DNA of 32,258 nucleotides from Candidatus Cloacimonadota bacterium (GTDB lineage: Bacteria; Cloacimonadota; Cloacimonadia; Cloacimonadales; JAMOQM01). The stretch covers positions 1 through 32,258 of the forward strand of contig JAMOQM010000124.1 of NCBI GenBank assembly GCA_027064005.1. Direction: 5' to 3'. The notes below the pieces were generated by a model that saw only the letters and a program-made list of their open reading frames with translations, did no database searches and was not told where the DNA came from. Made by a program: the position numbers and the translations under genes. Position 1 is the first letter of the stretch; each line of letters starts with the position of its first letter. Positions 10,650-28,170 of the stretch are shown here, in pieces.

Positions 10650-12416
10650 CTAATTATAAAATGACCATTGAATTTGTGAATTTACGTGAAAGCCGTTTAA
10701 GGGGAGATTTCCCACAAAATATTTATCTTCAAGATTCATCGCATTCACGATAAAATTGAATCTTTTCGTGATTGATAATTTAAGATAAGCATCAATTAAT
10801 TTTTCAGAATTAAGAGTATATTTATCATTTATTCGATAATCGGAAAAGGCGGAAAATTTAATCCCGCAAGTAATAGAATTATTAAATTTAAGATAATATT
10901 TAAACGCTAAATCTGTGAAATAAATATAATCAGGACGATAAATAATTTCATTATTGAAATATTTTTGGAAATTGTTTTTCATCATAAAACCAATATTTTT
11001 GATTCTATAATTTGAAACAGTTTCAAGTTTAACAAATTTTGTCTCGTCAATTTTCTCTGAATTTGATAAATATCCGGATGTCATTTTTAATTTAATTTTA
11101 TCAAAACCAAGTTTAATTTTGCAACCGGTTTTAATTTGTTTATTTACCAAACTGAATTGGTTGTCCGGCTCTATTTTATCATAAAAAAGCGAAAAGTTAT
11201 GTTTTCCAAAAAGATATTCTACAGAATTTTCAGAAACATATTTGTATTGATAGCCTTTAAAAAAATGCTTTTTAATTTTAAAATTTGATAAAAACCTATA
11301 CGTTAATTGAAATTCATTTGAGATTTTCCCTGAGCTTGATATTTCCTCCAAATACCTATTATGATGTACGTAACTTATTTTATACATAAGTTTTAGTTTA
11401 TGATAATTAAAGTCCTTTCTTAAAAAAGTTTTGTATTCTTCCCTATTATGATAATATAGCGGATTTTTTGTAAAATACTTTGAAAAACCGGCAGTTATCC
11501 CTTTTTTTGATAAAATTAAGGAATTAATGCTTGTTGCTGTTTTCAAATTATCATAATTCCCTGAATCTATAAAATTAATCGAGGAAAGCTCTTCATCAAT
11601 ATTAAGATAATTATAATTAAAATAAATATTTTTTATTTTTTTCGTTAAAGATAAATTCATATTAAAAGATTTTTCCGAATCAACCCAATTCCCTTTTTGT
11701 CCGAAAAAATGAAAAAGAATACTGCTATCTTCAATATTTAAAGGCTCGCCTTTTGCAAAAAAGAAATTACCGAAATTCATTTCATTGCTTCCAATTCCTG
11801 CATTTAAAGCAGAATAAGCGACAGGCAAATTATATTTTCTGGAAGAAAATTCATTATTAGAATTTAAAGAATCCATTATTGCAAAAGTTTCTATTTGTTT
11901 ACTTTGACTCAAAAAACCGCGCGGTAAAAGAAAATTGTCAATTTTGAAGATATTTTCATCTTCATAATAAGGAATAATATGCTGATTTTCACAATAAAGA
12001 TAATTTTGATCGAGAAAGTCATATCTGAAATTTTTATCATATTTTGTAATTTCAGTATAAAGTTTTTTTGTATCTATAATTTTGTTTTTCTTTCCAATAA
12101 AATCGATCGAAGTGGTTAAAGAATCTAAAATTGATTTACCATTTATATAAGTTGGAGAAAATTCCCACGTCCTAACGGCTTTTACCGCTAAACTATCATA
12201 AGGTGAAATTCCATAATCCACGCGAATTTTTCCGAGTGTAGAATCCGGTTTGATAAAAACGGTCAATATTACCGTTTCGGTATGACCTCGCGGTAACATT
12301 GATTTTCTATATTTTGGCTCAATTCGTTTTTTCACTTTGGCGAATCTTATTGTATTTTCAGCAAACAAAATAATTGCAACCATCATTAAGAGAACAGATA
12401 AAATATTTTTTTTCAT
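10650..12416 (-). CDS. TonB C-terminal domain fused to an outer-membrane beta-barrel
   Basis: About 588 residues from the ATG at 12416. That start overlaps the epimerase stop as ATGA and has AAGGA five bases ahead; a second ATG six bases earlier is less likely. Order of parts: signal peptide (1-20, ending FAENTI); a TonB-C-like domain (about 30-108) with the pattern ETVILTVFIKPDSTLGKIRV, DSLAVKAVRTWEFSPTYING and a closing TSIDF strand; a linker; then a long Tyr/Phe/Asn-rich beta-strand region. The C-terminus resembles TonB-dependent receptors: ITKRFNFIVNAMNLEDKYFVG, PLNGFHV, and a final IQWSF strand. No typical plug domain was seen between them. TonB-C normally belongs to an inner-membrane protein, so this is an odd architecture. 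Substrate unknown. Confidence 0.75.
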   Translation of the reverse strand: MKKNILSVLLMMVAIILFAENTIRFAKVKKRIEPKYRKSMLPRGHTETVILTVFIKPDSTLGKIRVDYGISPYDSLAVKAVRTWEFSPTYINGKSILDSLTTSIDFIGKKNKIIDTKKLYTEITKYDKNFRYDFLDQNYLYCENQHIIPYYEDENIFKIDNFLLPRGFLSQSKQIETFAIMDSLNSNNEFSSRKYNLPVAYSALNAGIGSNEMNFGNFFFAKGEPLNIEDSSILFHFFGQKGNWVDSEKSFNMNLSLTKKIKNIYFNYNYLNIDEELSSINFIDSGNYDNLKTATSINSLILSKKGITAGFSKYFTKNPLYYHNREEYKTFLRKDFNYHKLKLMYKISYVHHNRYLEEISSSGKISNEFQLTYRFLSNFKIKKHFFKGYQYKYVSENSVEYLFGKHNFSLFYDKIEPDNQFSLVNKQIKTGCKIKLGFDKIKLKMTSGYLSNSEKIDETKFVKLETVSNYRIKNIGFMMKNNFQKYFNNEIIYRPDYIYFTDLAFKYYLKFNNSITCGIKFSAFSDYRINDKYTLNSEKLIDAYLKLSITKRFNFIVNAMNLEDKYFVGNLPLNGFHVNSQIQWSFYN

Positions 12417-13384
12417 AACCATCCTTGTTTTTTATACCATTCGTAAGTAATTTTAGCTGCTTCATCAATATCATAATCAGAAGAAAAATTTAACATTTTC
12501 CTAATTTTTGAATTATCACAAATCCAAAATCTGCCAATCAGTTCAGGAATTTTTTGACGGTTTATAATACTGATTTTTCGCGTAAAAATTGATAGAAACT
12601 CCGAAATATAAGCAACAATTATTACAAGAAAAACCGGAATTGGAAGGTCTCTGACTTTTTCAATATTCATAACTTTTTTAAAACTGTTAGCAATATCTTG
12701 CGGTCGATATATTTTACCATCACTAATGAAGAATTTCTGATTAAAAGCATTTTTGTTAGCAACAGAAATTTGAATTGCTTTAACTAAATCCTCAACATAG
12801 ATTAGACTTAAATATTGTTCACGCTTCCAAATAGTTGTAACAAGCCCCAACTTAACTAATTTGAAATAGATTAAGAAATCCTTATCTCCGGGACCATAAA
12901 CTGATGCCGGACGTAAAATCGTATAATTCGTCTTTTTGCAATTTTTAATAACTGCGTTTTCAGCCATTAATTTGCTTTTGCCATAAAATGTAATTGGATT
13001 GCTTTCGTCTATTTCTCTTTTAGGAATTTTATTGTTAGACAATCCTGCAGCAGCTTGCGAACTAATAAAGATAAATTGTTTTACTGATTCACATTCCTCA
13101 GCAATTTGAGAGATTTTATCGGTTAATACGTAGTTTGCTTGATAGAAAGAATTCCAATTCTTGCCTTTGGTTGCTCCTGCCAAATGAATTACAATTTCAA
13201 AATCTTTTAAAATATTTTTTAAATCTGCCTTAGAATAATCTGAACGGATAATATTAGTTTTGCGATAAATTAAATCCACTTTAGATTTCTTTCTGACTAA
13301 CGCACTAACTTCATATTCATTCTTTAGCTTTGAAATTAGATTAGAACCGACAAATCCATTTGCCCCGGTAATTAATATTTTCAT
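12413..13384 (-). CDS. NAD-dependent epimerase/dehydratase-family (extended SDR) protein
   Basis: 323 residues from the ATG at 13384. A longer frame to 13414 only reads back through the argF terminator (MGALLPFF), so the internal MKILITGANGFVGS is the natural start. The Rossmann GxxGxxG is in residues 7-13, the SDR tyrosine and lysine in YGKSK, with HLAGATKGKNW and ILRPASVYGPGD as further extended-SDR blocks. The C-terminal part has a hydrophobic PIPVFLVIIVAYISEFLSIF segment and a FWICDNSKIRKML ending, reminiscent of 3-beta-HSD/dihydroflavonol-reductase-like SDRs that sit on membranes. Substrate not predictable. No Shine-Dalgarno precedes the ATG, only the terminator T-tract. Its stop overlaps the start of the TonB-C/barrel gene by four bases, so they form an operon. 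Confidence 0.85.
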   Translation of the reverse strand: MKILITGANGFVGSNLISKLKNEYEVSALVRKKSKVDLIYRKTNIIRSDYSKADLKNILKDFEIVIHLAGATKGKNWNSFYQANYVLTDKISQIAEECESVKQFIFISSQAAAGLSNNKIPKREIDESNPITFYGKSKLMAENAVIKNCKKTNYTILRPASVYGPGDKDFLIYFKLVKLGLVTTIWKREQYLSLIYVEDLVKAIQISVANKNAFNQKFFISDGKIYRPQDIANSFKKVMNIEKVRDLPIPVFLVIIVAYISEFLSIFTRKISIINRQKIPELIGRFWICDNSKIRKMLNFSSDYDIDEAAKITYEWYKKQGWL

Positions 13385-26697: not shown

Positions 26698-28170
26698 ATG
26701 TTAATAGACGTAGTTAAAATTCATGATAAATTTTCTTTTGAAATAAAATTAAATTACAAATTAGATGAAGATTTAAAAACAAATTTTTATGAAGTAAATA
26801 CTTATCTATTTTTACCTAAAAACTTGGATATTAATCGTCAAACTTATTCTAAATCCGATTTCTACTCAGATTTGAAAACCTATATAAGGCTTAAAACTCC
26901 CGAATTTTGTCTTAAAAATATTATCCAAAAAGAAAAATCTCCTTTTGAAAACTTAAAAAAAGCATCCCTTAATATTGCTAAAAATGCTTCTAAAGAAAAT
27001 TTTAATGATTTTGAATATCACTTAAAGATGTTTTGTTCAATAACAAAAAAATCAATAAAGCTCAGTTTAAATCATATTAATAAAAATTTTAATTCAACTA
27101 ACAACAAATTCCTCATTGATAGTTTCTTTGAGGATATTTCTAATATTTTAGCAAGATTTCGGGAACTTGAACAAATTATCAATATCCCGACAATTAAAGA
27201 TAAAAACTTCAAAATATATAAATATGGTGATGAATTTCTAAGTAATGTTGTAGAAATTGCTATGTTTGATTTTATAAAACTTATCGGCAAAAAACATTAT
27301 GCTGATTTTTCTAATCTAAAAAAGAATGGATTAGATTTTGTGAGACGAGAAATTGATTATCGAAAATCTCAAAATATGGATACAATACCTGATCCTTTAG
27401 GTACTAATGAAGGGCTTCTTTATCACCGAGCCGAATTAAAAAAAATGATGGATAATAAATTATTTTTAAACACCACGGCAACTAAAGACGGTTATGTAGC
27501 AGAACAATTGATTTTCAGTACGGCTGCCGGTTTGGCAATGCTTTTTGCTACACTTGTAGCTTTTATTTCAAAAGCAAAATATGGTAGTCTTTCCATGCAA
27601 TTTTTCTTTATTTTAATTGTAAGTTATATGTTAAAAGATCGCATTAAAGAACTTTTGAGATTATATTTTAATAACAAAATCAAACACGTATTTTTTGATT
27701 TTAAAACTAAAATATTTAATGATAACAAACAAGTTATTGGAATCAGTAAAGAAAGTTTTGACTTTGTTAAAGCAAAAAATATTCGAGCAAAAATTTTGAA
27801 ATTTAGAAGACAATCCCATAATTTTATCAAACCTAAAGAATTAATTAGAGAGAAAATAATTGTTCACCGAAAACAAATTAAAATATTCTCTAACAAATTT
27901 AATAATAATTATTATGATTATAATTTCAGCGGGATTACAGATATCACACGTTTTAATATTGAAAAATTCATCAGAAAAATGGATAATCCGTCAAAAAAGA
28001 TTTATGTTTTAGATGAAAATGATTTTCATAAAATCAAAGCAAACCGAGTCTATCATCTAAATATGATTATCCAATCTAAATTTAATAACAAATCATTTTA
28101 CAACAAATTCAGAATAATTCTAAACCGAGATGGAATAAAAAAAATTGAGCAAATTCCATTAACTTTATAA
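26698..28170 (+). CDS. uncharacterised 490-residue protein with a central two-helix membrane hairpin
   Basis: I recognise the type only as a conserved hypothetical with an N-terminal block YEVNTYLFLPKNLDINRQTYSKSDFYSDL followed by TYIRLKTP (31-68). Residues 80-250 are charged and helical. Two hydrophobic segments (about 270-290 and 298-312) make a membrane hairpin followed by basic residues (KDRIKELLR). A long basic C-terminal part has beta character (KKIYVLDENDFHKIKANRVYHLNMI). No nucleotide-binding, protease or metal motif is visible. GGGAG stands before the ATG, 20 bases after mogA, so it is probably the last gene of the cofactor operon, though similarity of position alone does not make it a molybdenum gene. 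Confidence 0.75.
   Translation: MLIDVVKIHDKFSFEIKLNYKLDEDLKTNFYEVNTYLFLPKNLDINRQTYSKSDFYSDLKTYIRLKTPEFCLKNIIQKEKSPFENLKKASLNIAKNASKENFNDFEYHLKMFCSITKKSIKLSLNHINKNFNSTNNKFLIDSFFEDISNILARFRELEQIINIPTIKDKNFKIYKYGDEFLSNVVEIAMFDFIKLIGKKHYADFSNLKKNGLDFVRREIDYRKSQNMDTIPDPLGTNEGLLYHRAELKKMMDNKLFLNTTATKDGYVAEQLIFSTAAGLAMLFATLVAFISKAKYGSLSMQFFFILIVSYMLKDRIKELLRLYFNNKIKHVFFDFKTKIFNDNKQVIGISKESFDFVKAKNIRAKILKFRRQSHNFIKPKELIREKIIVHRKQIKIFSNKFNNNYYDYNFSGITDITRFNIEKFIRKMDNPSKKIYVLDENDFHKIKANRVYHLNMIIQSKFNNKSFYNKFRIILNRDGIKKIEQIPLTL

Follow-up and report, generated by a model that had tools for sequence, protein, structure and literature searches.

A plug-less, receptor-type barrel protein with an N-terminal TonB_C-like domain, encoded in an overlapping unit with a putative CerR-type SDR in Cloacimonadota

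The systems closest to the locus described here are the TonB-dependent receptors and the bacterial ceramide gene sets. A survey of 34,893 receptors, which required both a plug and a PF00593 barrel, distinguished five N-terminal architectures, and TonB_C is not among them (PMC6434023). On the sphingolipid side, Caulobacter CerR is a periplasmic protein associated with the inner membrane and, according to one group, a flippase or transporter for bacterial sphingolipids has yet to be identified (PMC11087976); LptC2/F2/G2 have been proposed as sphingolipid carriers (PMC11324152). The 3-ketosphinganine reductase of Bacteroides, BT_0972 (about 31 kDa), was picked by its likeness to the yeast enzyme (PMC9278070) and was left out as a reference for the SDR sequences discussed below. 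A published study describes Spt-like genes from 33 MAGs of Cloacimonadota, with neither CerR nor bCerS present within 10 frames (PMC11334938).

The locus is part of a stretch of 32,258 nucleotides from a Candidatus Cloacimonadota bacterium, the whole of which is called the window here; its features are collected in Table 1. An earlier note had placed a gene for a TonB-C domain in front of an outer-membrane barrel at 10650-12416 and gave no strand. These coordinates are borne out, and the gene runs on the minus strand, where the frame is open for 588-590 amino acids; the plus-strand frame is full of stops. Translation may begin at the ATG at 12416 or at an alternative ATG at 12422, which gives 590 amino acids. 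We are highly confident of the general identity of the product: an outer-membrane protein specific to Cloacimonadota that has a 22-strand barrel of the TonB-dependent receptor type, no plug and a periplasmic N-terminus which in part of the phylum carries a TonB_C-like domain. Its gene lies behind that of a probable CerR-type SDR in an overlapping unit.

Table 1. Features of the barrel locus, with positions in the window and residue numbers in the 590-residue reading
Feature	Coordinates	Strand	Basis or remark
Polytopic membrane protein, about 6 helices, 202 aa	10031..10639	(-)	beside the barrel gene in 22 genomes
Barrel protein with N-terminal TonB_C-like domain, plug-less	10650..12416	(-)	588 aa; open frame and junction; homologues in almost every genome of the order
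Signal peptide MKKNILSVLLMMVAIILFA, likely cleavage before EN	12360..12416	(-)	translation read by eye; hydrophobic helix 2-19 in AlphaFold model
TonB C-terminal-like domain, residues 36-108 of 590	12099..12317	(-)	PF03544 E 0.0068; family-level profile E 3e-19
Helix, residues 118-141	12000..12071	(-)	AlphaFold model
Conserved segment, residues 142-200, family pattern YxENxH...NGF...YxLPV	11823..11999	(-)	alignment A1
Predicted 22-strand barrel, residues 202-589; last ~96 columns like TonB-dependent receptor C-termini	10656..11819	(-)	AlphaFold, Foldseek, profile
Putative CerR-type SDR (Pfam: Epimerase)	12413..13384	(-)	stop overlaps barrel start; upstream of barrel gene

The AlphaFold2 model of the protein, based on an alignment of 19 relatives, has a mean pLDDT of 84.3 and contains 22 strands between residues 202 and 589, as counted with DSSP on the predicted structure. 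The best 50 Foldseek matches in the PDB are all TonB-dependent receptors, headed by BtuB (1nqe, E 5.3e-12), with TM-scores of about 0.5. In a profile comparison, the C-terminal 96 columns of the barrel match BtuB-type receptors of Cloacimonadota (E 2.3e-5). These results agree with the earlier reading of the remainder of the chain as a barrel, which is predicted here to be of the receptor type. The absence of a classic plug stands as well: the plug family PF07715 gave no Pfam match in 56 members, and comparison of the barrel family profile with the plugs of Cloacimonadota BtuB-type receptors gave an E value of 0.9. PF00593 did not match the barrel protein either, no TonB box was evident by eye in alignment A1, and a search of PDB sequences with the barrel profile returned two marginal TolA-domain matches only. 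A conserved GLGDxDMN...KG stretch was considered as a plug remnant and rejected, there being no profile support for it; the AlphaFold model places this stretch in the first barrel hairpin. Judged by its sequence, the conserved segment directly ahead of the barrel (residues 142-200) is possibly a lumen segment that replaces the plug.

TonB_C (PF03544) is the sole Pfam match of the window protein and covers residues 36-108, with an E value of 0.0068 and 17.3 bits against a cut-off of 24.6. The N-terminal match proposed in the earlier note is therefore sub-threshold in this protein taken alone; at the level of the family it holds. PF03544 matched 8 of 19 homologues (best E 3.7e-9), and a profile of eight intact members aligned with canonical TonB C-termini over 83 columns at 33% identity, with a probability of 99.2 and an E value of 3e-19. 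The canonical set consisted of six sequences, four from Cloacimonadota (one of them from the window's genome) and two deltaproteobacterial ones. This comparison discriminates, since N-termini of members judged to be without TonB_C reached only E values of 0.1-0.6; four further member groups scored 0.0015-0.005 against the canonical TonB profile, consistent with eroded copies. In the AlphaFold model the TonB_C-like elements are strands 48-57 and 63-70, helix 75-84 and strand 100-109.

Signal peptide, TonB-C-like domain and receptor-type barrel thus occur in one chain, as had been proposed, and the same domain order recurs in relatives. The TonB_C domain begins about 15 residues past the signal peptide with the barrel behind it, and since the chain has both a signal peptide and a barrel, the domain would be periplasmic and tethered to the outer membrane, in line with the earlier suggestion. 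The translation and the AlphaFold model showed no inner-membrane anchor, proline-rich spacer or C-terminal position of TonB_C in the barrel protein, and ExbB/ExbD are absent from the neighbourhood of its gene. A normal TonB-ExbD operon lies elsewhere in the window's genome, together with its receptor, and in it ExbD-like genes adjoin the canonical TonB (contig C50). A third TonB_C-like domain of this genome (G000:C136:11959-12144, locus L052) forms the end of a 484-amino acid protein with one likely membrane helix.

Among 56 relatives the TonB_C domain is intact in 8, degenerate in 13 and not recognisable in 35, and the barrel is kept throughout. Because most relatives possess the barrel and no intact TonB_C, the domain is dispensable for the barrel and not an essential gate, and the idea that it serves as a plug substitute is not supported. 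Scored on a quick, unrooted tree of the barrel region, which has long branches and an unsure placement of the window's row, these states require five changes of TonB_C presence. The graded erosion of the domain favours repeated loss of an ancestral TonB_C as the simplest reading of these sequences. A lineage-specific gain was also considered; the unrooted tree gives no decision on it, and the erosion points to repeated loss.

The barrel profile found matches in 99 of the 107 genomes of the order, many of which are MAGs; a few of these matches were due solely to canonical TonB, and a barrel match is present in 94. The barrel is thus a near-universal protein of the little-studied phylum Cloacimonadota, one such barrel being encoded in nearly every genome. 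It was absent from all 26 SDR-carrying genomes of other phyla, in which only three short TonB_C-type matches appeared. A search of genome contigs that used the barrel protein alone as query gave no relatives, and no barrel was found on plasmids. Two loci titled Armatimonadota (L057 and L060) carry the SDR-barrel pair, group with Cloacimonadota in the tree and probably belong to misnamed MAGs.

The strongest and most informative part of the locus lies outside the coordinates of the barrel gene and is its conserved SDR partner. The end of the SDR gene (TGG TTA TGA) overlaps the start of the barrel gene (ATG GTT ATG A), with an ATGA at the ATG at 12416, and an overlapping junction is seen in many relatives. 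The SDR is present in 85 of 107 genomes, counting one divergent copy (G012). In 83 of these the barrel gene follows directly downstream on the same strand, and in the remaining two the contig stops no more than about 100 bases past the SDR. Candidatus Syntrophosphaera thermopropionivorans W5 (L099) is among the carriers of the pair. The other neighbours of the pair vary between genomes. Both SDR motifs, TGxxGFxG and YxxxK, are present in the window SDR (alignment A2). When an SDR taken from a deltaproteobacterial SPT operon is the query, this protein scores highest in its genome (213.8 bits, the next one listed having 69.5). In a tree that did not include Caulobacter CerR, the barrel-linked SDRs form one clade (99/97) inside the spt-linked group. 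Eight of ten paralogues fall outside that group; the other two are long-branched and their placement is unsettled. Sequence and context together make it probable, in our view with good confidence, that the upstream SDR is of the CerR type.

Relatives of this SDR in deltaproteobacteria (many of them Syntrophaceae) and in some other phyla adjoin an SPT-like enzyme and a GNAT-family protein. This neighbouring SPT-like enzyme matches NF047600 with an E value of 2.7e-169, below the equivalog cut-off. The SDR, SPT and GNAT neighbourhood is also found on plasmids of Rubrobacter and Aureispira, and a Diaphorobacter plasmid carries an SDR relative together with spt, an acyl carrier protein, a fatty acyl-AMP ligase, a GNAT protein and an LptF/G permease. 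The latter set is similar to the ceramide genes of Caulobacter, namely aasR, cerR, acpR, spt and cerS with LptF2 and LptG2 nearby (PMC11324152). In Cloacimonadota the SPT and GNAT genes are located apart from the SDR-barrel pair. The SPT of the window's genome, which like the GNAT is assigned from its sequence and context, has a bacterial SPT as its best PDB match (449.7 bits versus 292.6 for the next class) and scores 590 bits with NF047600 (cut-off 640); the genome also encodes a ceramide-synthase-like GNAT beside a gene that is PlsY-like by eye. Several genomes of family f8 harbor two or three tandem copies of such GNAT genes (G103:C3:14732-18292, G105:C93 and G106:C304).

Co-occurrence was assessed in 63 genomes that are 90% complete or more, one of them with 6% contamination, with the SDR scored at 120 bits or more and the GNAT at E values up to 1e-3. 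Both proteins were present in 56 genomes, the GNAT only in two, the SDR only in none and neither in five (Fisher p 3e-6, an optimistic value because the genomes are related and the test ignores relatedness). The five genomes without SDR and GNAT span five families (f2, f4, f5, f9 and f11), and their best SPT-like match is 36-38% identical, where the SPT candidates of the other genomes reach 54-59%. G008 is an exception in that it encodes SDR and GNAT but no clear SPT. All five genomes without SDR and GNAT retain the barrel. In G004, one of these five, a clear SDR relic directly precedes the barrel gene (L035:215-442, E 1e-13), and a marginal one is located upstream of it in G003 (L046, E 0.004), which likewise has neither SPT nor the GNAT. 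Since the barrel is kept where the ceramide genes are lost, its role is either wider than sphingolipids or altered in these genomes, and there is no strict tie to ceramide.

On the other side of the barrel gene, 22 genomes from several families, the window's genome included, have a gene for a polytopic protein of ~200 amino acids which belongs to no Pfam or NCBIfam family and which stays adjacent to the barrel gene in genomes without the SDR. A Foldseek search with its model gave ThiT among the top matches (probability 0.77, E about 1). A likeness to ECF S-components was rejected, as this E value is not significant. Two other window genes were noted. The 333-amino acid protein encoded at 1450-2451 on the minus strand has a signal peptide, a barrel-like composition and no NCBIfam match, and its gene adjoins a polysaccharide-deacetylase-like gene. 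The 490-amino acid protein encoded at 26698-28170 on the plus strand has a membrane stretch and no clear family, and its gene lies behind molybdopterin-type genes.

The retention of a plug-less receptor barrel in almost every genome argues for an outer-membrane role without TonB gating, and the tight link to a ceramide-reductase-type SDR suggests that the barrel handles lipids. The best explanation overall appears to be an outer-membrane module for lipids in which TonB_C serves for docking on the periplasmic side; we put it forward tentatively, as somewhat less than an even prospect. At the outer membrane the barrel protein would handle envelope lipids. In genomes that have the ceramide pathway, the SDR would reduce the 3-oxo intermediate and the barrel would help to place or move the resulting sphingolipid; we infer both this substrate and the direction of transport. 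TonB_C would be a passive periplasmic dock that undergoes strand pairing with a partner peptide, and neither an energy transducer nor a gate. That the barrel acts on lipids is conceivable, if somewhat doubtful. The more specific proposal of an import barrel turned to lipid placement, fed by a CerR-type reductase, provided with a TonB-like dock and forming the outer-membrane part of a route dedicated to the delivery of sphingolipids, or possibly of lipids more widely, seems distinctly unlikely. A receptor-type barrel of 22 strands without a plug could also simply be a general pore, a receptor turned into a porin-like channel with TonB_C as a decaying cap and the SDR linked by operon history only. 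We consider such a pore unlikely on balance: the decay of TonB_C across the family and the survival of the barrel after SDR loss agree with it, but the SDR is linked in all 83 genomes that could be assessed, amid changing other neighbours, which is hard to explain without selection, and the conserved 60-residue segment ahead of the barrel suggests a specific lumen element.

Three further explanations are less probable. The barrel might take up a small nutrient with the polytopic protein as its inner-membrane partner, which would fit their persistence as neighbours in SDR-less genomes and the ThiT match. The lack of significance of that match, the absence of a plug and of any evident TonB box through which uptake could be energised, and the fact that most genomes do not have the polytopic protein beside the barrel make such an importer improbable. 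TonB binds TonB boxes via strand pairing. The TonB_C domain, homologous to TonB C-termini over its full length and with its final (edge) strand kept in the model, might accordingly work as TonB does, gripping either its own N-terminal segment or a second receptor's TonB box and regulating or replacing the plug. This is quite improbable, since an intact domain is missing in most members, there is no proline-rich spacer for an inner-membrane link and the genome has a normal TonB system elsewhere. Very improbable, finally, is a sugar or LPS module that consists of a nucleotide-sugar epimerase (the SDR) and a barrel working for LPS or capsule. The SDR has a generic Epimerase annotation and HpnA as its best, far sub-cut-off NCBIfam model, and LptD (PF04453) went undetected in 13 Cloacimonadota genomes, a Bacteroides control being negative with PF04453 too. 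However, the SDR co-occurs with the GNAT and falls among SPT/GNAT-linked SDRs, away from most of the epimerase paralogues, and the barrel fold is of the receptor type, not that of LptD.

Similar to the BtuB-type TonB-dependent receptors (PF07715 plus PF00593), the window protein has a 22-strand barrel, a matching fold (E 5e-12) and a similar C-terminus; unlike these, it has a TonB_C N-terminus, is unmatched by PF00593 and is without a plug. Its N-terminal domain is homologous to the C-terminal domains of TonB/TolA (PF03544; 83 columns, 33% identity), but it is located at the N-terminus of an outer-membrane protein, follows a cleavable-looking signal peptide and is often eroded or lost. The STN and CarboxypepD_reg domains of receptors are likewise small periplasmic domains ahead of a receptor barrel (PMC11658791, PMC6434023), whereas the domain found here has the TonB fold, no plug behind it and no anti-sigma partner gene nearby. 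A plug-less receptor-type barrel with a TonB-like domain at the chain end opposite to that of TonB would represent a re-use of TonB-system parts, and the barrel may fill a gap on the outer-membrane side of bacterial lipid handling. For Cloacimonadota, the SDR beside the barrel is a candidate CerR and the GNAT elsewhere in the genome a candidate CerS. The overlapping genes for a ceramide-reductase-type enzyme and for an outer-membrane barrel, a phylum-wide pair, provide a concrete candidate for a bacterial sphingolipid route to the outer membrane; in the known bacterial ceramide gene sets no barrel has been described. As in the Caulobacter spt, cerR and cerS sets, the putative operon partner is a CerR-type SDR and the genome encodes Spt and a CerS-like GNAT, but in Cloacimonadota the CerR-type SDR is paired with a barrel, away from spt.
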